A stretch of 64,000 bases of DNA from Larus michahellis (lineage: Eukaryota > Chordata > Aves > Charadriiformes > Laridae): the NCBI RefSeq assembly GCF_964199755.1, contig NC_133906.1:21389419-21453418 (forward strand), in the 5' to 3' direction. This document shows, one piece after another, positions 1 to 37,800 of the stretch. Numbering within the stretch: the stretch's first letter is position 1; each line of letters begins with the position of its first letter. The translations under genes and the position numbers were made by a program. The notes beneath the pieces were generated by a model that worked only from the letters and a program-made list of their open reading frames with translations, was not told where the DNA came from and searched no databases.

Positions 1-1765
1 GTCTCATTAATTTATCATGGGAACATGCCTTCAGTGCTCGCTCCCCTCCGTTCTCTTTCGTAAGATTGACAGAAATGTCTATAGACCACAAAGTGTTCTT
101 GACAAGAGGGTAATTGACCTTCGATGTTTACGTCTCCCCGCTCTTGGTATGTAACACACCAAGCTGGTTCATTTTTGGGAGGACTGGCTGTAAAGGACCG
201 GTAGTTTCCTTTTATGCTCTTGTTCAGAGGTCAGGAGAACTGGAATAACGAGTTCTCTGAGCTCTGTCTGGAGCAGTAGGTAACTGAGGAAGAACTTCCT
301 TGAGTAAATGGCCGAAGCCTTGGAGTCAAGGCTTTCAGAGCAGCCCCAGGTCTGCAAATGGGACAAATGATGATTTGCTGTTTTAGCAAGATCTTGAAAA
401 TAAAGCAGCACCAAGGGATTTTCTTTGTGACGGATAGGGTGCAATAGGCTAAGAATGAAAATCCACTGCTCTCCCTGGTGGGAAAGGAAAGGAGAATAGG
501 CTAAGAGACAGGTGCTATAACTTGGACACTTGGCTGGAGTAGGAGGAACTGGGTGGAAAGAGTTTCTATAGCTGAAGGACTATTAGCATCACCACCACTG
601 AACACTTCTTCCTTCATTATTAACATCAAAATAATTTCATTTATTCTGCAGAGTTGAGCTTTAATGAGACCACTGGCTGATTCTTTGCAGCTGGACATGG
701 CTGAAACACCGTTGGTGCTGACAGAAAGGAGCGTGCTGCTGAATTGCAGGATTTTGCTACGCCACAGACACTGAGGTAGAGAGCAGGACTTCTACCACCT
801 CTAACCTACTGCACTAGCAAAGTAAAACCATTATTTGTTTAATATGTTAGCACGTGCATGACAACTGCTATGTCGTGCACGATCATACGGCCCCTGCATC
901 CCCTGGCTTGGGCACTGTGTCCCATGACCTGACAAAAACTCCTGTCTCGGGAGAGCCGAATGCACTGCTATCTGCAAAAGTTTGAAGTGTCTCCTTTTCT
1001 GGTCTTGAAACAGGCAATGCAGCGCTTTCCTGATGCTGCTAGTGAAGGCTGTTTGCGCGTGCTTGCGCAGCAAAGAAATATTTCTGCTACTTGTCTCATA
1101 TTTTGCATCTTTTTGCCGTCCTTCTCTTCATACATTTGAAAGCAGCCTGGGGGGGAATAGCAATAGTAGAAAGCTAGCGTTAAACCACTGCCAAAGAAAA
1201 TGCCAACAGAAGGTATATGCATCGCTTACGTCCAATCGCACGCTGCCTGCTCAGCATTCGGCTGACATTATTTGGGATGCTGCCACCGACAGCACTGGGA
1301 GTTCAGGCTGCTCCCCGGTTTGCCTGCCGCCTTAGTCACTGGGTTGACTGCTGTTCCCCAGTCCCCGGGTGTCCCACGTGCTCTGAAGAAGGGAAAGTCT
1401 GCCCTTAGAGATGCGGTAGGACCATTTTCCCAAAGGGGGACGGGTGCCGGGAACGTAAATAAAACTCCCAAACGATACAAGTGAAGGAGAGTTCATCTGA
1501 GTTAACCACCGACAGTGAAGTCGTTTTGCTGTCTCGGGCTATTCTAATCCTATCAGTCAACAAACCTAGGCCATCTGAATACGCTGCACCACTTGGATTT
1601 CCACTCCGGCTATTTTCTTCAGCTCTTTTCTCTGCTAAATCTTCACGATTTCCCCCCAAGCACAAACAGCAAGTGGAGAGGGAGAAAAGGAGGATAAATT
1701 GGAAAAGCACAGGGAGAGGCCAGGGGACTGTCACTCGGAAAGCATGTTCTTCCCGTCAGACTGAC
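1..1765. other. Intergenic, no gene seen
   Basis: No Kazal exon or other recognisable coding exon on either strand. By chicken synteny the ovomucoid gene should lie further left, outside the window, so this is probably its far upstream flank. An imperfect inverted repeat (stem about 10 bp with one mismatch) is present near 852-881. Confidence 0.5.
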
Positions 1766-1894
1766 ACATCGCAGGCACGGATCCCACATTCAGTGCTAGA
1801 AGTGAAACCATCTGTGCCACAGATCTGCTGCGGCGCTGGGCCAGGGGGCTCTGACTGGCCGTCCTCAGCGATGCCCCCGGGGCACGTGCTATGG
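1766..1894 (-). pseudogene. Decayed Kazal 'a' exon (relic of a lost inhibitor domain)
   Basis: On the minus strand the bases from about 1830 to 1766 align closely with ovoinhibitor 'a' exons and translate as QICGTDGFTSSTECGIRACD. Compare [20 protein letters not shown] in domain 4: the conserved Tyr is Ser, a cysteine is Arg, and the reactive-site Cys-Pro-Arg stretch is scrambled. The block is about 129 nt, begins after a T-rich tract and CTCAG, and ends at GT|GTCAGT, where intact genes have GTAAGT or GTACGT. An in-frame stop follows 9 nt later. I found no matching 'b' exon between it and the left edge. It is probably a remnant of a duplicated ovoinhibitor/ovomucoid-like gene; a functional exon is unlikely but not excluded. 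Confidence 0.75.
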
Positions 1895-4800
1895 CTGAGC
1901 CTTGAAGGCAACCAAGGAAAAAAAAAAAAGTTTGAAGCAATAAATTCCCGAACATTCCTCATTCTTCAGCAGGCTTGAATGAAATTAACGTTTTGCTTCT
2001 CTGAATGAAAAATAGGCACGACGCGAACGCTCTTTGTTTGCAAATTCACAGTATGTTTAAACTCACGGGGCTGCACCTCAGCTGGTGAAAATCTGGAAGA
2101 GCCTCCCAGGCTGAGTGGATGTCTGCCAGCTGGAGACGGGCTCCCTTCCGCTCCCATCCGATTGTCTCGTATCTACTGGTTGATCAGCGGAGAGCACGCA
2201 ACCGGAGCCCAGAGCGTGGCAAAGAATCAAATGAAATTATATCAAACATTAAATTACAACAGGAGAAAGAACATTTCTGAGTGCAAAGAGAGTGATGGAT
2301 GAAATGGGTGGATACTAGGATTATATCTCCTTAAATATAGAGATCCAGGGAAATTCTTTCCATTCCCAAACTATTTTCTTTGCTAACAGCCAGTTAAATA
2401 GACCTGTGCGACTGATACAACGAGTTTGTATAATTATTTCTGGATTTCTTTTTTTTTTTTGAGGAACATACAGCTATAAAAGCGGTTAAAGAAATCATTT
2501 GACTATTCTGCCAAAAAGAGAACAGTTTTTAAAATCAGTGGGACGAGCCTTGTCACTCTCAAGCGCCTCTCCAGAGAGCGGCAGAGCATCTCGGCCCATC
2601 CACGTGCTGCCTGGGGAAAAAACCTAAACCAAGGCAAATCATCAGCAGACGTAATTTTGAAAGGTATAGATTTTTTTGGTAAAATGGTTGAAGGAAGTTT
2701 AGGTACAGACACTACCAAGGAAAAGTTGTGGGGATTTTTATTTTTTTTTTAAGCCACAGATGGGCGAGTGCTGATAAAGGGTGAAAAAATAATCTTTCGG
2801 CTCAATATGAAAAGACTAAGTATTGTTTTCTAAATCCCACTTATCAATCAAGAACTATATGATTCAACTCATTATTCCTTCCCTTTGTGTTGTAAGAAAA
2901 ATGACTGTAGACTCAGAAAACATTGATAAGTCTATAAAGATAATTTAGACAAACAAGGAAGGAGAGAAGACATTTATGTTTTTAAAATATTGCCTCTGTG
3001 ATATGTACCGGTGCGTTTACAAGTCACGAATCCCGAGGCCGGAACATCACCAGTGTGAAACGCGTGGAAATTGGCCCGCCCTCGGCGCGGCTGAGGAGCT
3101 CGGTGCCTGCTCTCCGGAGCCGGAGGGCTGCGGCAGCGGCCGCAGGGCAGCGTGCGGAGCTGGACCAGCTGCGTTTCGGCAGCAAAGTTTAGATGTTGCA
3201 GTCACAGCAGGCACTGGAAAGGCGGTTTTTTCTTCACCGCATCCTTCCCCGAGGGTATACGGCTGCACCTGCAACTAGTTCTGTTCATGGCAAGAGCGCA
3301 AAAACGAGAGTCCACTGAGAATCCAGGCTTGCATCCGTGTAGCGCCGCTTTTCAATTTTAAAATCAGGCTTTCCTAGCATGACAGTTGAATGGCTTTTGG
3401 GAGTAACCTGACCATTTTGAAGGCTTTTGCCCACGGTGAGTAAGAGAGGGAGCCCCGGGGCCCTGCAGAAGCGATGGAGCAGTAGCTGAGCAGCACCGGA
3501 GCGTCTGTCACCCTCACGCTGCAGACAGTTTCTGAGTGTATTTGCAGCCTGGCAAACGCCGAGCTCACGAGATGATCTCTTGCTGTTCCCCAGCACAGTC
3601 ATCTCTATCTATCCGTCTACCCAGCCGTTCCTCTACCTCTGGCCCAGCAGGCACCCAGCTCATTCACCCGTACCTTAAAACCAGCTTTCAAGTCTCTTAG
3701 TGACACTTTAAACCTGCTCTTGTTCTACCTCTCTCCTAAGCCACCAAAATTCGATGCTTCCTCTTGAACGTGCTCGTCTTTGCCTGGCCGTGGCTTCCTC
3801 ATCGTCACAAAGCAGAAAGAAATCATCTAATTAACACGCAGTCAGTAAGTAACCCTGGAACAGCTGAAAAACAACTCCGAGGCACAGAAAACAGCTCTGT
3901 CCCTGAGAAGGCGGCTGCCCTACTTTTATAGAGCTATATTGCTTCATAAAACACCCCCTGAGCCTGGCGGATATTTAAACGCCAATGTCAGGCTTTTCCA
4001 ATTTTCTGGCCCAGTTTTAGTGATTTATTCCATTACATAATTTTACATGAAACCTACTGGCGAATACTGCGTGGAAACGTCTGTCTAATGGCCGCTTTGG
4101 CTTCTTTCCTCGATTGCTCCGACTTAATCTCAACTTTGTGCCTCCTTGAGTTCGAGTTTGCCTTTGGTGTCACCGGACAGTGAGCTCCACGGAGGAGGCT
4201 CTGGCACGGCGGTGCCCAGCTAACGCCATTCACTTGGACCCTGACAGCTTTACTGCAAAGGCTTGCAAAGGCCAGCGGTCAGAGCTAAGTCCAAGTGAAA
4301 GTCTGCCAAAGTCCACCCAAAAAAAAATAATTCAGGTCTTATCCCTGAGGATAACCAAGTAACATTTAAACAAGGCTAAAGCAGCATGTTCTGCAAAAAC
4401 ACCTTAGCAGAAAATGGCAAAAAGGTTATATAAACCAAAGGAACGTTTACATTAGGACACAGACCCAAGAAAAGTACAATAAGCCATTGTTAGTTACAAA
4501 TCGTCTTGAAAAATACGTGCCAGGCATGGACACTAATGGCACGGAGGTACTACGGCCTCGTTCCCTGGTACAATACCCACAGTATCTCCAAGTCTTGAAC
4601 ATTTGCCTTCAGCCTATTCTTCTAGCCCGACAATTTAAAGAGTGACTTTCCAAACCGATCCAAATAATTGTGTTGCTCTCTGGTAAACTACAATGGGACA
4701 TTGAGTCAGGGAGGCGCTAGCTGTAGTCCAGAAGAAACCCTTTAACCCTGAAATATTGGACGCTTGCAAAGCGCTTTCGTGACCTGGTGTGGAGCCAGTG

Positions 4801-5780
4801 GTAGCAGCTGTACCCAGATGGCCAGCAGATGACGGGCAGCCCCCAGCTCCCCCTACCTCCCTGCCATACACACACCAAAGTGACAGCAAACCTGTCACCG
4901 GGTCCTGAGCTCTTCGGCCTTAAAAAAAGTAGGTAAAACGTGACTATCGGGCAGAACTGCTTTCCTACGACTTGTTACGTATTTGGTTAAGGCTGGTGAC
5001 AAGTGAACCTCTGCGGCCTTTTCCTTCCCGCATGGCTTTAGAAGGCAGGCAGCTGCAGGGATACACCAGGGCTGTCCCCCAGGGGTGACGCCTGCCCACT
5101 GGTCCTGGGGATATTCGGTTGCATGAATAAACCGAGGTATTTCGTGCATGGACATTTCTGCTGCCTGTGACCCTGGAGGGAGCACAACATTGCCTCCTGT
5201 AGGCTATCTCCTATAACAGCACTTGACATTGGGGACAAATTCAGTGGAAACAGGCTGGGATCACCCTTCCTGGCAGCAGCTGCTGCCTCTTCTTCCATGG
5301 GACAGGCCACACAGGCGGTGGGATCCAGGACAGGGGCACCCCTTGGCTAGGCAGCCAGTTTCCCTTCCTAGCCCACAGCAAGAAAGTGCTCTTCTTGAGA
5401 GCAAACCACCGCCCACGTCCTAGACATTGCCCTATGGAGGAGGTGGACCATACCCTTGAGGTGAATGTCTCCTTGTGCCAACTATAAGGATGGAGTCCGT
5501 GATCAGTTCATACAGAGATATTAAGGGTGAGGTTCACACAGAGATATTAAGGGTGAGGTGAGACTAATACCGACAGGGAGACTTTGAGGAGCAAGAGTGC
5601 CTGGGAGCTCCAAGAGGAGGCCAGGCCCTCACGAGAGCAGGGTCAGCACTGACCCATGGCAGGAAAAGATCTACCCACATTGTTTGGTAGAGCAGAATAA
5701 CAGTAGAAAAATACATACGCACCACTACAAGTACCGTGTCAGGGAGAAGGTACAAAAGGGATGAGACATGGCACTAAGAC
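1895..5780. other. Intergenic spacer downstream of ovoinhibitor
   Basis: AT- and T-run-rich spacer between the Kazal relic and the ovoinhibitor 3' end. No open frame here has splice sites or family motifs I can support. The only structured feature is the short tandem duplication at 5512-5559. Confidence 0.5.
5512..5559. repeat. Two-copy tandem duplication, 22 bp at 26-bp spacing
   Basis: ACAGAGATATTAAGGGTGAG plus GT occurs at 5512-5533 and again at 5538-5559, separated by TCAC. The copies are identical, so the duplication is probably recent. It lies about 240 bp beyond the ovoinhibitor poly(A) signal. Confidence 0.85.
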
Positions 5781-11900: not shown

Positions 11901-14900
11901 GGCATGCAATTTAAAGCAATATTCTGAATTATTCATTCCTCTGCTCAGTCACTGCCCAGCCCACAGACTAATCCGAGGAGCTGCCATCTGACTCGTGAGC
12001 ACAAAGAAGGTATCAGAAGGAAATTCAAGGTAAATCCAAAACCAAGCCGGTTTCTAAGAGACTTGAAGAAAAAGGGGAAAGCAGCAATGCAGAAGGATGG
12101 TTCTCAGGACTGCAAAGCATGGCTGGCTACTTAGGAGGAGTGCTCAACCTATGGCACTTACCCATTGTGGGCACAGATCCCACATTCATTATCGTAGGTA
12201 TTGCCGTCTGTGCCGCAAACTGGGTTCAGGATCCTCGGACAGGATACTAATACTTTGCCGTCTTTAGTGGTTGTTGTTGGGTACTTATTGCAGTCAAGCT
12301 GTCAAAATAAGGAGAATTAGCTCTGGTGGGGCCCTTGCTATGCAAGAAAAGTTGATGCAAAACCTTTTCATTCTGCATCCCAGCCTCCAGTGTTTCTGCA
12401 CAGGACAAAACCCTGATACACTGAAGCTAAATCTTCAGTCAGAAATGAGCTTTCCAAATATTATCCCGGTTCTCTATCAGTCAAGAAAAAGGACTATCTT
12501 GGAGAAGGGATCCTTCAGGCAGAAGAACATATGCAAAATTTGGGCCCATTCTCATTAAAAAAAGGGTCTTGAATTTAGTGGGAAACATTTTTCACCAGCT
12601 GGAAATATGACTAATACTGTTTTGGTTTGTGTTGGTGTTCTCCCCACTTCTCTAGCTCGGTGATTACTTATTACTCCAGAATCCCTGTAGTAAGCACAGG
12701 GTTTGAAAGGGCAGAGAAAAAACGGTTGTCTGTCAGTTGGAGAATGGACTTTCTGCATCCCAGAATTTGGGTGCTGAAATACAGAAGCGTCTCTCCCTGA
12801 GGCACCAGGCTGTTGGCCCTGTATGAACGTACAATAAACTCTACTCTAGAAATACGTGTGCCTAGTTTTCTTATGAGTCTCGCTATGGCTGTGAAAGCGA
12901 CCGGCATGGGAGTTTTGGGTCCCTGATGCAAAGAGCGTAGAGAAAAGGGCCAACCAGCACAACACTTTGGCAAGGGAAATCTTGGGCATCCCATTGGGCA
13001 CAAAAGCCACCTTAGTACGTAGGGAGGCGGGTTCTGCAGCACTGGCTCGCTGCAGCGTCTCATTTCATATCCACCTCCTTCCTCCTTTGGCGGTTTGGTG
13101 TATGCGTGGGGCGGCCCTCTCTTCGGAGCAGGGAGGATGCAAAATCCACCCTCACTGTGCAGAAAGTCGAAGCACGGACTGGGACCCTCGTAAGCCTTGT
13201 CATACGGTCCTCTTGCAGTTTCCTGGGGAAACCTGTGGGGTTCTCGGGATTCTCTCTATTAACCGCCCTGAGAGATGGATTTCTGACTGTTATTGCACTT
13301 ACGGTGACAATCTGCTTGCATTCTCCATCATGTATTTTGCTGACGTTGGTGTGATGTTCTCTGAAAGAAAGAAATGCTTTGTTTAGGAAGCCTTGAGAAG
13401 AACTTTTCCCATCACACACTAGGCACTGGGACAAGAAAGCAAGGTCCCACCTGCCTTGTGGGACACTACAACTGCTTGACTTGTCTGAACGCGCCCCACA
13501 GATGGCAGCAGCAAACGCACAGTATTTCCATATCACACGGTAATTAAGAGTTAGGAGTTAGTAGGTGTTATGAGTAACGCTTTGATCTGTTCGTGGCTCT
13601 GCTCTGCGTTGTCCTGTGGTTCTTTTGTGATTCCCCTCATTGAGCAGAGACAGAAATTGGGGAAGAAAACTCAGGTTGGCTGGAGAATTACAGGCAGCCA
13701 GCTCCAAAGAGACCTACAGAGACATCTGACCTCAGAAAGGCGTTTTACAGACGTGCTCCTGAGAGCCTTAACTATCACTAATGATCCAGAAGGATGTTCT
13801 ATGCACAAGACTTACGCATTGTAGGCACAGATCCCGCATTCGTTGTCATAAGTGAAACTATCTGAGCCACAGACTGGTTTGAATATCCTTGGGCAGGCTA
13901 CCATGACGTGACCATCTATTTCAGCTCTTCGGTACCTACTGCAATCGATCTGTAAAAATAGCAGGAATAGAGAAAAGAAAACAAAATACATTTTCAGTAT
14001 AGAGATATAACACTCCTATGTAGTCCGCTTACTCTCCCTCAGCCTTTGGGGACAAATCCATCATCAAACTAATCCCGCTATCAAATGTGGAAGCCAGAGT
14101 CAGTTCTGTGGGAATTCTCTCCTGCTGAAAAAAATGGCATAAGCAAGAAGGACTATGATTTGGATTTTGTGAGCTCCTTCATAAGATCCTGCTATCCAGG
14201 TGGTGAGATCCAACCTTCAGCCAACACAATGTTTTCATTTTATTCCCAATTACAGAGGCTAGATCCGAATTAAAAAGCACAGAGACATGGTACCAGATAG
14301 CCCATAAAAAACCCTCTCGGCTTTAATTATCATCAGATTTTCATTCCCTTTGTGCTGCGCACGTTCTGTTTTCTTCGTGTGTGGTGTTTGAACTGTCCCC
14401 TTTTACAACCAGATGAAGCCTTCCATGGACTTTGTCTTACCATAATTGACTTTGGCTCGCATTCTCCATCATGTGCCTTCTCCACGCTGGACCTCTGCTC
14501 CCTAGAAGAAAGCAGACCGGCGTCAGGGACCCCAGAGAGCAGCATCACCTCGAGGGCGGCAGCGCCAGACCCAGCTGCTAACTCCCGTGCTCCTCTGCCC
14601 GGTCCTTCTTTGGGGATGAAGTTGCCACCCTCGCCGCAGCCCCTTGCCCCGCGGCTTCTGCTGGGCTTCCAGCACTGCTCACCTGTTGTGCAGGCAGATC
14701 CCGCACTCGTTGCTGTACGTGTTGCCGTCGGTGCCACAGACTGGCTTCAGGTTCCTTGGGCAAGCTACCCAGGCTGTCCCATCCTTGCCGATGCCGCTGG
14801 AATACTGGCTGCAATCAACCTGCGAAAGCAGCACGGGATCAGACCCAACACTGGCTCCCGTAGGGGAAGAAACCCCCACGCAGCCTCCCGCCGCCGTGGC

Positions 14901-16357
14901 CACAGCGCCTGCAGCTCCTGCCGGGAGGTAAATTGGAGGTATTATTTTGAGTCTGCTCAGGCAGTCAGGAGGAGTGAATCTTCCCTACAGAAGTTTCTGG
15001 TTACGCGCTTTCCTGCCGGGGTCCGGGGGAGGCACGGCACGGAGGAAGGGTTGCCGTGGGTGAGACGGTGCCTAATGAAGGCAGCTGGTAATTGGGAGCC
15101 CGGCCATACACCGGAGCCCCTCAGCTCAAAATCTGATCGCTTCAAATCGTGCTGCAGTCTCTGGTGAGTTACGGGAGTCTTGTAACTGCGTGGGAAGAAC
15201 CTGCAGACAAATCCATGGCACAGACCCTGCTGTTTTCCTCTCTATGATACAGATATAGAAAACCCCTGCGAGAACACCGCACTTCTGCAGGTCTTACTGT
15301 ATAGAAAAAAATTACCAGAATCTCAGTCTTTGATGGTTTCAAGTGTATCATCTTCAGACAGTATTCCTCACGAGGAGGTAACCTACTGCCTTTGGGTTGG
15401 AGTAGCTAAATTACGTCTAAGAGTTAATACAATGGGATTATAAAATTACTTCTCACTTTTTTCATTTCATTTAATGAACAGAAAATATTGTAAAAAATGG
15501 GGGATCTTTTACTCTCTCGTGAAATTGGCAACATCATTCAATCATGCACTGGAAAATATTATTTGAACAGCCAAGCTTTCATTAGATTTAATCCACTTGC
15601 TCATCAGATAATTACATACTGTTTCTACTTTACCAGAGACCTAGAATAGAACAGAATGAATGGATCTGTAGCTCACCTCGACTCCAAAGGCAATACCTGA
15701 AAGAAAAAAAAATGGAGACAGAAAAAAAAAAAAATCAAACTATATGCAGTGAAGATATATGTAAATCTTTTCTTGAAACTGTTAAATTCAGTGACTGTTG
15801 TTGACCAGTTCATTTGGTTTAGGAAAATGTGTAGGTTTACATTAGGCCAGTAAACGGTCATAGGATGTATCAGAAGTTACTAAATAAAGTTTCATTGCAC
15901 TTTTGAGGGGAGATAAAACAGGGGAGAGCACATATTCATCCGTCCCTCAGATGTTACAGGGAAGCGATACAGGTACTTTCAATTTGGTACTTTTGGATTT
16001 TAACCTCTTCTAAAGAGACTTTATATTTGACTTTCAGAAGTTTGGACACGCGTGTTTAAGATGCTCCTGCTCCTTCAGCAATTTCCTCCTACAAGCCAAG
16101 AAGATGAAAACAGTTGCCTATATGAGGTTTGCTGAAACCTCAGTCTTGAAGGCTTAATTTTTGCTACACTCTCTTGGCAAGAGTATTTCTTCATGGATCG
16201 AGGCTCTCCCCCACGATACAAGACCCAAATACTTTTACTGAAATGAACATTTAGCTCTGATGCAGCTGGATGGATCTCTGCAATGCCCCAGGAAATACTC
16301 ACCCAAGGAGCAGCAAAGGGCTAGAGCTGCCCTCACGAAAACCCCCGTTATCTTCAT
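5930..16357 (-). CDS. OIH: Ovoinhibitor, seven-domain Kazal serine protease inhibitor (16 coding exons)
   Basis: Secreted inhibitor of serine proteases found in bird egg white and plasma; in chicken this gene is also listed under SPINK5. I joined 16 exons with consistent GT-AG sites and phases: 16303-16357, 15677-15696, 14683-14819, 14441-14501, 13816-13949, 13303-13360, 12162-12298, 11691-11751, 10753-10889, 10251-10311, 8917-9050, 8779-8839, 7386-7522, 6952-7012, 6471-6586, 5930-5975. They total 1416 nt, or 471 residues, close to the chicken length. Residues 1-24 are a signal peptide ([15 protein letters not shown]...). Kazal domains are at about 26-91, 92-155, 156-221, 222-287, 288-352, 353-418 and 419-471, each with six cysteines and a CG(T/S)D core. 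P1 residues (second after Cys2) read Arg, Arg, Arg, Arg, Phe, Met, Met, as I recall for chicken. N-glycosylation sequons are seen in domain 2 (NVS) and domain 7 (NRT). No frameshift or missing cysteine was found. Confidence 0.97.
6471..6586 (-). CDS. OIH: Ovoinhibitor exon 15: Kazal domain 7, first part
   Basis: Encodes [17 protein letters not shown], then CGSDG. P1 is Met. The segment before Cys2 is shorter than in domains 1-6, as in the chicken protein. The exon again ends in GT followed by GTACGTAC. Confidence 0.95.
6952..7012 (-). CDS. OIH: Ovoinhibitor exon 14: Kazal domain 6, second part
   Basis: Encodes [14 protein letters not shown] and linker EEDITK. 61 nt; acceptor CTCCAG, donor GTGAGT. 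Confidence 0.94.
7386..7522 (-). CDS. OIH: Ovoinhibitor exon 13: Kazal domain 6, first part
   Basis: Reactive-site stretch [13 protein letters not shown] places Met at P1, as expected for chymotrypsin/elastase/subtilisin-type targets. Followed by [13 protein letters not shown]; donor GTGAGT. Confidence 0.95.
8779..8839 (-). CDS. OIH: Ovoinhibitor exon 12: Kazal domain 5, second part
   Basis: Encodes [14 protein letters not shown] and linker VEEVPQ. 61 nt; acceptor TTCTAG, donor GTAAGT. Confidence 0.94.
8917..9050 (-). CDS. OIH: Ovoinhibitor exon 11: Kazal domain 5, first part
   Basis: Reactive-site stretch [13 protein letters not shown] places Phe at P1, predicting inhibition of chymotrypsin-like enzymes. 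Acceptor CTCAG, donor GTAAGC. Confidence 0.95.
10251..10311 (-). CDS. OIH: Ovoinhibitor exon 10: Kazal domain 4, second part
   Basis: Encodes [14 protein letters not shown] with the sixth cysteine, then linker KEESTA. The usual HDG is HAG here. 61 nt; donor GTAAGT. Confidence 0.94.
10534..10567. repeat. Two-copy tandem duplication, 17 bp
   Basis: CTGATTGAGAGCTGGCT occurs twice in direct succession (10534-10550 and 10551-10567) in the ovoinhibitor intron between exons 9 and 10. The identical copies suggest a recent slippage event. Confidence 0.85.
10753..10889 (-). CDS. OIH: Ovoinhibitor exon 9: Kazal domain 4, first part
   Basis: Reactive-site stretch [13 protein letters not shown] (P1 Arg). 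The donor lies in the nested sequence GTGTACGTAC; only use of the second GT (exon ending at 10753) keeps the frame with exon 10. Confidence 0.93.
11691..11751 (-). CDS. OIH: Ovoinhibitor exon 8: Kazal domain 3, second part
   Basis: Encodes [14 protein letters not shown] and linker RQETSE. 61 nt; acceptor CTTCCAG, donor GTAAGT. Confidence 0.94.
12162..12298 (-). CDS. OIH: Ovoinhibitor exon 7: Kazal domain 3, first part
   Basis: Reactive-site stretch [13 protein letters not shown] (P1 Arg), then [13 protein letters not shown]. The pre-reactive loop carries a run of four Thr ([11 protein letters not shown]). Donor GTAAGT. Confidence 0.95.
13303..13360 (-). CDS. OIH: Ovoinhibitor exon 6: Kazal domain 2, second part
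   Basis: Encodes [19 protein letters not shown]: the sixth cysteine, an NVS glycosylation sequon and a short linker. It is 58 nt, one codon shorter than the other 61-nt 'b' exons. Confidence 0.94.
13816..13949 (-). CDS. OIH: Ovoinhibitor exon 5: Kazal domain 2, first part
   Basis: Reactive-site stretch [13 protein letters not shown] (P1 Arg) followed by [13 protein letters not shown]. 134 nt; acceptor ACAG, donor GTAAGT. Confidence 0.95.
14441..14501 (-). CDS. OIH: Ovoinhibitor exon 4: Kazal domain 1, second part
   Basis: Encodes [14 protein letters not shown] with the sixth cysteine, then the linker EPKSIM. 61 nt, phase 2 in and 0 out; acceptor TTCTAG, donor GTAAGA. Confidence 0.95.
14683..14819 (-). 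CDS. OIH: Ovoinhibitor exon 3: Kazal domain 1, first part
   Basis: Encodes the first five cysteines of domain 1, with reactive-site stretch [13 protein letters not shown] (P1 Arg) and the TYSNECGIC strand. Phase 0 in, phase 2 out; donor GTGAGC. Confidence 0.96.
15677..15696 (-). CDS. OIH: Ovoinhibitor exon 2: end of signal peptide (20-nt micro-exon)
   Basis: The 20-nt exon lies between a T-rich acceptor (TTTCTTTCAG) and donor GTGAGC. With the split codon it encodes GIAFGVE. Cleavage after the small residue Gly of AFG would release a mature protein beginning VEVDCS, matching the chicken arrangement. Confidence 0.92.
16303..16357 (-). CDS. OIH: Ovoinhibitor exon 1: start codon and signal peptide
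   Basis: The exon starts at ATG and encodes [18 protein letters not shown] plus the first base of a Gly codon (phase 1), followed by donor GTGAGT. The hydrophobic core is typical of a signal peptide. It is the only ATG downstream of the TATA box that fits the following exon. Confidence 0.93.
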
Positions 16358-34800: not shown

Positions 34801-37800
34801 CCAGGTATGCTAGGGTAAGAGGTGAGTATTTTTGCCATTTAACATGACATTACACATTAACTGAAGCAAAGCACTCTTTCACAAAAGGCTTTTGCACCAA
34901 AATCTGCTTGAGTATCTCAGTCTGGTCTTTAATTTCCTCTGAACAGCTTTCCTCTGACTTTCAGAACACGTGAGCGGGTTTGTAGCGTAAGAAACACATG
35001 CTACACGTGAAGCCTTTTGGAGCCTTTATGCAGCACCTTTAAGGTTATCTGCTATGTGATCTGCGTTTTCCCCCCTCATGCCGTGTAAAGGAGATGGTTT
35101 GATAGCTTATCCCAGCTCCGCAGGTGGGGAAGTCAAGCCCAGAAAATTACTTGCCAAAAGCCAGACAGAAAAATCTGTGGGCGAACAAAGAAATTTAGCG
35201 TAGGTCTCTTCCTGAGACTCTAAAACTGTCCTCCTGCCTTCAGGACTACGTGTTGGCAAGTCAGGTGTTTAAAAAAGATCTCCCTTAGGACATCTATGCT
35301 TTACAAAGCCTTTAAATTGCCCAGACACACAAGAGCTAGAAAGCTACCCTGCTTAACCAGATGTGAAAAAAAATAAATAAATCACTGCAACCAACACTAT
35401 CTGTTGGCAACCAGCTCACTCCCATCCAGAATAAAAACCCAAGGCTCAAAAAGACAAGTCCCTCCACATAAAGACCTGCTATCTAAAAAAACAGCTACAG
35501 GTAAAAGAAACCAGCCGGCTGCATCGACAAGATAAACAAGGGACAATTAGAGCCAGCCTGCTCCCACGCCCTGCCCTAGTCACAGCTCACATGCACCACC
35601 ATTGCTATTAATTATTTGTCAGATGCCAATGGCATGCCTTCAACAGGCAGGTTCCTCCTTAGCCTACACTCTGGGTCAGGCACAGACCACACACGCCGTG
35701 TCAGTAATTGCCTGATAGGGAATAGATTGCCTGGGATTTGCCACGAGGAGTTTTGGTTTCTTTTATGCTCGTGGATGGCACAAAGCCTCACGCTCCCTCA
35801 GAGCCTCTCGCCGAGGCAGAGCACGTTTGCCCTGCTCCCATTGCCAGGCCCTTCCCCATCGGCCAAGCCGGTGTTTCCCACACCGCAGACAAGGAAACGC
35901 ACTCGGCAAGTGGGTCAGAGGCAGAAGACGCAACACCACCACATCATCCCGCTCCCGGTGCGCCGATAAAACTGGCTTCGGTAGCGATGCTTCACCTCAC
36001 CTCTCCCGAGGAGTTCACATTCCTGTTCGCCTCTCCACCACTCCCTTTGTTTTTTGAGTCTCTTTCCCTGCAAGAAAGGGAGGCGTGAGCGACAGAGCAG
36101 TCCTCTCGGACGTAAAACCACAATAGCTAGTGATTAAAGGCCAGTCCTGCCAACCCCACCTCCCCGTTGTGCAAGGCGGTGGGAAGAACCGGCACTGGGG
36201 CTCAGTGAGACATGCCCAGGGTATTGACGAGGGGCAATGGTTTAAACTAGAGCAGGCCAGGTTTAGATTAGCCATTAGGAAGAAGTTCTTGACAAGGAGG
36301 GTGGTGAGACACTGGAACAGGTTGCCCAGAGAGGTGGTGGAGGCCCCTTCCCTGGAGATATTCAAGGCCAGGCTTGGTGAGGCTCTGAGCAACCTGATCT
36401 AAAGATGGCCCTGCTTACTGCAGGGGGGTTGGACTAGATGGCCTTTAAAGGTCCCTTCCAACCCAACAAGTTCTATGATTTAGCACCTCTGCACTGGGTC
36501 ATTTTGCCATCCTTTCTCCCTGCCCAACAACCAGAAACATCTAGTTTCTTAGAAACAAGAAACTAAATCCGGTATGTTTTCACCCTGGATTTGCTCCTCA
36601 CACCCTGCGGTGTGTCACCTCTGTGTGACAAGCTGGAGAGCGCTACTGAGTTCACAGGTGTGCTGAGGAGCTACAAACTGGTCTGTCTGGCCCAGGACTA
36701 CAGTTTGACATTGCAGAGTGAGACAGAGCCTCCCCAGAGCGGCCTCATCGCTATAGGAGAGGACGGGCTGCACACTGAGGATGGCGGCATGAGCGATACT
36801 CACAGCAGCCTTTGGCACATCAGGCACTTGTTGAGGTCTCCTTTGGCACCTGAGCTGCTGAAGGGCTCCTTGGTGGTGGGACAGGAAAACTTCCCACTGC
36901 GCAGAAGTGACCAAATTTTCATGCACTCTTTCTGAAAAGCAGAGGAGGACAGTCAGTGGAGGCTCCCTCAGAGGCCATCGGGATCCTGGGAATAATCCGT
37001 TCATATTCAAGTTCTTTTGGGTGGGTTATGTGCTCTCAAGAGCAATAGTTTGTTCACACTCCTCATCCCCATCCCTCACCCCACACCACGCGTGGTACAG
37101 GCTGCGCCCAGAGCCCTGCTCGTGACTCCCGAGGCAGAAAAGACAACAAGAAAGTTCAAAACCCGTTGCAAGGGCCATTATGCACGGGAAAAGGAACACA
37201 TATTTAATTAGCATACAGCTGCAAATTGCTACCTGCTGCAGGGGAGGACTCTCATGTTATAAAGTTAGTCAAGAGTGAAAAAAATGTAGCCCTAGAAGTG
37301 CCAGTGGGATGCAAGAGTAATGAATCAAGCAGAGTTACTGAAGAGCGATTCAGGTGCAAGGCTGAAGCACAGAAAAGCACAATCCTCTCGGGAAGCGGAG
37401 CAGTAATGTTGTGTAATGCTGCATCCCCCAATTGCCTCTGCTGCTGGGTAACAGAAGCGCAGACGAGGGAGAATCAAGGAACCATTTAGTTATTTTTGGC
37501 TGCTATGTTTTCCAATAGGGTCTTTACTAAGGAGAGACAAGCTTGTTTGATTAAAACATGAATGGAGCTGACTTCTCAGCCATTGAATCAAATAATTTTC
37601 TGAGACTCAAAGGACTTGCCTTAATTCTTTTAATTATCAAACTGGGGAATTGTCAGAAGCAGGGGTTTCTGCTGGATCAGAAGCAAAATTCTGAAATATC
37701 GTTAAAATATTATTCGTTCCATTTCTAACTTCATCTCACGAGATCTCCAGCCCAGAGCTGTTCGGATATGTGCTCGGCATAGCACACTAAACATACGCTG

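Follow-up and report, generated by a model that had tools for sequence, protein, structure and literature searches.

The genes for ovoinhibitor and ovomucoid are linked inhibitor genes made of repeated Kazal exon pairs, and in the gull Larus michahellis the region that holds them is a long one-strand inhibitor cluster. Between the two genes, on the minus strand, lies a short block that resembles a Kazal exon, and we asked what this block is, which working exon it came from, and whether it ever was part of a gene. The analysis covered a stretch of 64,000 nt, referred to here as the window (contig NC_133906.1, positions 21,389,419 to 21,453,418), to which the adjoining 40 kb on its low-coordinate side were added; negative window coordinates refer to that added DNA. 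For birds, a passage in PMC6767445 uses the names SPINK5 for ovoinhibitor and SPINK7 for ovomucoid. A passage in PMC9363672 gives ovoinhibitor seven Kazal domains and mentions an ovoinhibitor homologue in crocodile eggshell.

In the window, ovoinhibitor runs on the minus strand from a likely signal exon at 16357 (E=0.01 when searched with a chicken signal peptide) through seven 'a' exons with 5' ends near 14819, 13949, 12298, 10889, 9050, 7522 and 6590. Each of the first six is followed by a 'b' exon, giving six 'b' exons, and the gene closes with TGC-TAA at 5935-5930 (stop at 5932-5930) and an AATAAA at 5807-5802. About 250 nt past this AATAAA, a 26-nt unit is repeated twice (5506-5559). Ovomucoid was found downstream in the same orientation, with its signal exon at -7610, two 'a' exons of 137 nt (-9466 to -9602 and -10472 to -10608), 'b' exons at -10127 and -11177 and a third domain near -12250. 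The block therefore sits between the AATAAA of ovoinhibitor and the first exon of ovomucoid. The eight working internal 'a' exons of the two genes are 134 or 137 nt long, all of them 2 modulo 3, and working Kazal 'a' exons are entered in phase 0 and left in phase 2.

Kazal exons are also present on either side of this gene pair. Upstream of ovoinhibitor, an 'a'-type exon with all five cysteines (26874-26748, minus) probably belongs to another SPINK-type gene, and three more Kazal-type exons lie at 36952-36803, 34431-34210 and 31752-31522, again on the minus strand. The exon at 36952 is the most diverged of these three (E=0.095 with an ovoinhibitor-type profile). Two of the three have in common a DPVRDSSGKQH stretch in place of the CGTDG core, and we take these two to be similar to LEKTI-type SPINK5 domains. 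Beyond ovomucoid, further Kazal exons occur on the minus strand from about -14700 to -33000: one near -16.1 kb, which pairs with ovoinhibitor domain 7 (support 94) and is accompanied at -14786 by a likely signal exon, then three near -23.4, -24.7 and -25.8 kb, and another near -32.9 kb.

A DNA profile built from the window's seven ovoinhibitor 'a' exons picked out the block, giving 38.9 bits (E=2.9e-11) for minus-strand positions 1890-1771, and the score stayed between 32.0 and 42.2 bits when each exon was dropped from the profile in turn. With the same profile, the best non-Kazal match in the window reached 7.0 bits and the reversed window 6.1 bits, and none of 100 windows of 64 kb simulated as first-order Markov sequence scored above their maximum of 10.1 bits; in these, as in all Markov nulls used here, real repeats are not modelled. 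At the protein level, tblastn with ovoinhibitor domain 1 found the block at 1875-1780 minus (48% identity over 33 aa, E=2e-5). A protein HMM built from seven Kazal exons of the window (six from ovoinhibitor and one upstream) gave it an E of 1.9e-5, compared with 1.6 for the best match that was not Kazal-like. Pfam Kazal_1 (PF00050) matched the block's peptide with E=0.0012 and 19.2 bits, below the curated cut-off of 21, and its top matches among solved structures were follistatin (E=3.7e-4) and ovomucoid (E=5.1e-4). The block is homologous to Kazal 'a' exons. An earlier note on this DNA, made from its letters, had called it a relic Kazal exon on the minus strand; DNA profile, tblastn and protein HMM bear out that location, the nucleotide alignment to Kazal exons is significant, and the profile score against its null, together with the damage described below, supports the identity. 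We conclude that the block is very likely a relic Kazal exon of the ovoinhibitor front-half type. A scan of viral contigs for stray bird DNA gave no relative. A relic exon in the ovoinhibitor-ovomucoid gap appears in none of the titles and abstract openings among the matches listed, a literature search in which subscription literature is thinly covered and which says little.

Based on the DNA profile, the leave-one-out runs and the global alignment, the relic occupies 1766..1900 on the minus strand, 135 nt counted from an acceptor AG at 1902-1901. By global alignment this start is more likely than the one first proposed, at 1894 (129 nt). Counted from 1900, the relic has one extra base before C1 in this alignment compared with working exons. 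A T-rich acceptor side ending in TTCAAG is indeed present (1901..1935, minus), but the acceptor is out of phase. All four AGs between 1960 and 1880 (before 1957, 1900, 1894 and 1888) give lengths divisible by 3, and translation in phase 0 runs into a stop at codon 4 from the AG at 1900, at codon 2 from the one at 1894 and at codon 8 from the one at 1888. The donor is in a different state: it is of the GT/GT type that had been noticed, reads GATGT/GTCAGT and preserves the phase of the working exons. From C1 to this donor, the relic body (1766..1893, minus) is in frame with the working exons and free of stops. The global alignment places a single 3-nt gap in it; the local profile alignment places gaps of 1 nt and 2 nt instead, which cancel each other.

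Within this open frame, the Kazal domain itself is heavily damaged. Aligned by codon with the working exons, the relic reads SHSTCPGGIAEDGQSEPPGPAPQQICGTDGFTSSTECGIRACD. Three of its five cysteines are lost (C1 to His, C2 to Gly and C5 to Arg), and C3 and C4 are retained. Ser stands in place of the Tyr that follows the CGTDG core and Cys in place of the Tyr a little beyond C1, and the reactive-site loop is gone, the stretch after C2 retaining little beyond one proline. The earlier note had rightly seen the loss of the Tyr and the reactive site, but counted one lost cysteine where the codon alignment shows three. Kazal disulphides pair C1 with C5, C2 with C4 and C3 with C6, so two of the three (C1-C5 and C2-C4) cannot form in an exon that has lost C1, C2 and C5. 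The third needs C6 from a 'b' exon. Of the six spaced cysteines of a Kazal domain, five of which are in the 'a' exon, the relic has only C3 and C4, and C6 is a Tyr in the candidate 'b' relic described below. Of the 42-47 columns that do not vary among five of the six internal exons, 14-17 are altered in the relic, compared with 3-7 of 43-47 when each working exon is set against the other five; constraint has been lost at sites that are invariant in working copies. Differences between relic and domain 2 are spread as 19/18/19 over codon positions 1/2/3, compared with 11-17/7-12/21-26 between domain 2 and domains 3-6. Because the spread is less even against domains other than domain 2 (for example, 19/17/28 against domain 4), this sign is mixed. 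With disulphides, reactive-site loop and acceptor phase lost, the relic should make no functional inhibitor today.

Which part of ovoinhibitor the exon came from is indicated by its best pairwise blastn match, the 'a' exon of domain 2 (13816..13949, minus). The two share 76% DNA identity over 84 nt, strand, donor phase and a stretch of intron, the match extending 26 nt beyond the donor, to 1740. Unlike domain 2, the relic is without C1, C2, C5, the core Tyr, the reactive site and an acceptor in phase, and it lies beyond the gene, downstream of the ovoinhibitor stop and AATAAA. The stretch consisting of the relic donor GTCAGT and the intron that follows (1740..1765, minus) resembles the intron after domain 2, and past the donor hexamer 13 of 22 bases are shared. 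In this intron test, made after the blastn match had been seen, one of the 69 donor-like sites on that strand of the 104 kb reached 13 matches; as the donor of domain 2 is itself such a site with 13, it is that single site. Apart from the exon itself and these roughly 26 nt of intron, blastn found no further ovoinhibitor-like flanks around the relic.

Trees of the exons point in the same direction; their supports are ultrafast bootstrap values computed from about 135 columns. In a 15-exon tree, domains 1-4 and the relic were split from domains 5 and 6, ovomucoid and the other exons (support 77), and in a nine-exon tree the relic and domains 1-4 were split from domains 5-6 and ovomucoid (support 75). 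The nodes that place the relic inside the domain 1-4 group have supports of 39-48, which fall short of usual standards, and in an earlier tree that lacked ovomucoid the relic was joined to domain 5 (support 47). Ovomucoid domains I and II, about 11 kb downstream of the relic, are likewise Kazal 'a' exons on the same strand; however, they fall on the opposite side of the split (support 75-77), and their identity to the relic is 51.5% and 44.8%, compared with 55.7% for domain 2 and 53-56% for domains 1-5 in global alignment. Together, these comparisons suggest, with modest support, that the relic belongs on the domain 1-4 side, away from ovomucoid, and domain 2 is its most likely source.

A candidate second relic, of a 'b' exon, lies on the same strand at -2637 to -2698 (C15:21386720-21386781), 4.4 kb beyond the first, a distance far above the 77-568 nt that exon coordinates give for a-b introns in ovoinhibitor and ovomucoid. 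A profile made from five 'b' exons of ovoinhibitor gave it 10.6 bits (E=0.013 over 40 kb), a score matched by 2 of 400 second-order Markov intergenic stretches and by none of seven opposite-strand chunks. With an eight-exon profile it scored 7.9 bits (E=0.24 over 104 kb, both strands), equalled in 6 of 300 simulations. It also came first, with 28 of 49 matches against 23 for the next site, in an ungapped comparison of 395 acceptor-like sites on that strand of the 104 kb, a test from which working 'b' exons were left out and which was made after the candidate had been seen. Its blastn match is to 'b' exon 3, at 69% over 77 nt with an E of 0.005. The candidate has a good acceptor, is open in the expected frame and reads ESEIDTGKNPNGKYITRNSL, with C6 changed to Tyr. 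As it is 62 nt long and working 'b' exons are 58 or 61, its donor is out of phase. It is absent from the protein profile matches. We regard this second relic as likely to be real, though not secure.

Further profiles were run over the 14.3-kb gap between ovoinhibitor and ovomucoid. A terminal-type exon profile found only the known relic above chance there (8.3 bits, 1 of 300 simulations), and a weak signal-exon profile of three exons found only the signal exon of ovomucoid itself. A 'b' partner directly behind the relic (1361..1397 minus, with the match at 1396-1371) was rejected as being at chance level: 30 of 500 simulated stretches scored as high and 2 of 36 plus-strand chunks equalled it. 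Two further stretches gave weak matches to introns, -2265 to -2515 to an ovoinhibitor intron near 15692 (60% over 260 nt, E=0.013) and 1027-934 to an ovomucoid intron near -11823 (64% over 94 nt, E=0.002); these are perhaps shared repeats, or perhaps more of a lost copy.

The clean frame of the relic body bears on its history. In a neutral simulation, with indels assumed to occur at 0.1 per substitution and 80% of them shifting the frame, the share of exons that were still clean was 27% at 0.1 substitutions per site, 8% at 0.2 and 2% at 0.3. The relic's own tree branch is 0.60-0.73, compared with 0.17-0.36 for working internal ovoinhibitor exons. An open frame at such divergence implies either recent damage on top of older divergence as a coding exon, or lasting constraint. 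The simplest interpretation would be an exon that gathered some of its divergence while it was still coding and was damaged later. Tandem gene clusters contain pseudogene fragments with a recognisable exon between working paralogues; the relic is like these in its position, but its frame is clean for its divergence.

Overall, we think it probable that the block is a dead 'a' exon copied from the domain 1-4 part of ovoinhibitor, likeliest from domain 2, and probably the remnant of a lost unit. An 'a' exon with some adjoining intron would have been copied from that part of the gene, probably within an additional unit of ovoinhibitor type, situated between ovoinhibitor and ovomucoid and oriented as they are. 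The exon would then have decayed, losing cysteines, the reactive-site loop and the acceptor phase. That these are the remains of an inhibitor unit now lost from between the two genes is, on balance, the likelier case, and a candidate 'b' relic on the same strand in the same gap fits it. Of the two origins that the earlier note had offered, a third inhibitor gene between ovoinhibitor and ovomucoid is thus the favoured one, given ovomucoid downstream and the candidate 'b' relic, even though the profiles for signal and terminal exons found no further relic there.

A lone 'a' exon with a little intron might instead have been copied into the downstream flank of ovoinhibitor and never have stood in a gene, which we consider possible but rather unlikely. 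Just one relic is secure, its likeness to ovoinhibitor ends after the exon and about 26 nt of intron with no long flanks, and the signal and terminal profiles revealed no further relic in the gap, all of which speaks for a stray copy. However, the candidate 'b' relic shares its strand and gap, and a frame that is still open despite 53-56% identity to domains 1-5 would be odd for an exon that was dead on arrival.

In a more elaborate but unlikely history, ovomucoid would be the surviving back half of a tandem-duplicated gene of ovoinhibitor length and the two relics remnants of its discarded front half. Ovomucoid domains I-II group with ovoinhibitor domain 6 in the nine-exon tree (support 87) and with a group of domain 6 and terminal-type exons in the 15-exon tree (support 84), where ovomucoid domain III stands beside ovoinhibitor domain 7 and one more exon (support 75). 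Both relics are found upstream of ovomucoid and share its strand, the 'a' relic being like domain 2 and the 'b' relic like 'b' exon 3. Because they lie upstream of the ovomucoid signal exon as well, that exon must have moved or been regained under this history.

Selection for another role, as regulatory DNA, as a non-Kazal peptide or as part of a fast-evolving gene with missed exons, could account for the open body frame, for which one neutral model gives an expectation of about 2% at 0.3 substitutions per site. We hold this to be very unlikely, as the changes fall on fold-defining residues, the acceptor is out of phase and Rfam gave no match at its gathering threshold over the window. The second origin offered by the earlier note, that ovoinhibitor had more domains, is less likely than the first: an extra 3' domain, lost or still used in alternative transcripts, agrees with the same strand, the position 3.9 kb downstream and the correct donor phase, but is very unlikely for a gene that already ends with a seventh domain, its own stop and an AATAAA about 3.9 kb before the relic. 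The relic, moreover, groups with the internal domains 1-4 rather than the terminal domain 7, has an acceptor that is out of phase and has lost three cysteines. Chance resemblance, for which the Pfam score beneath the curated cut-off might speak, can practically be dismissed, since the block scores 38.9 bits and the best of 100 simulated windows 10.1.

As molecular biology, the finding is an ordinary one, since tandem gene clusters are expected to contain relic exons. For the egg-white inhibitors of birds, a relic between the two genes that is of ovoinhibitor front-half type would show, as a physical trace, how their cluster gained and lost parts, and it could be dated via other birds and crocodilians.
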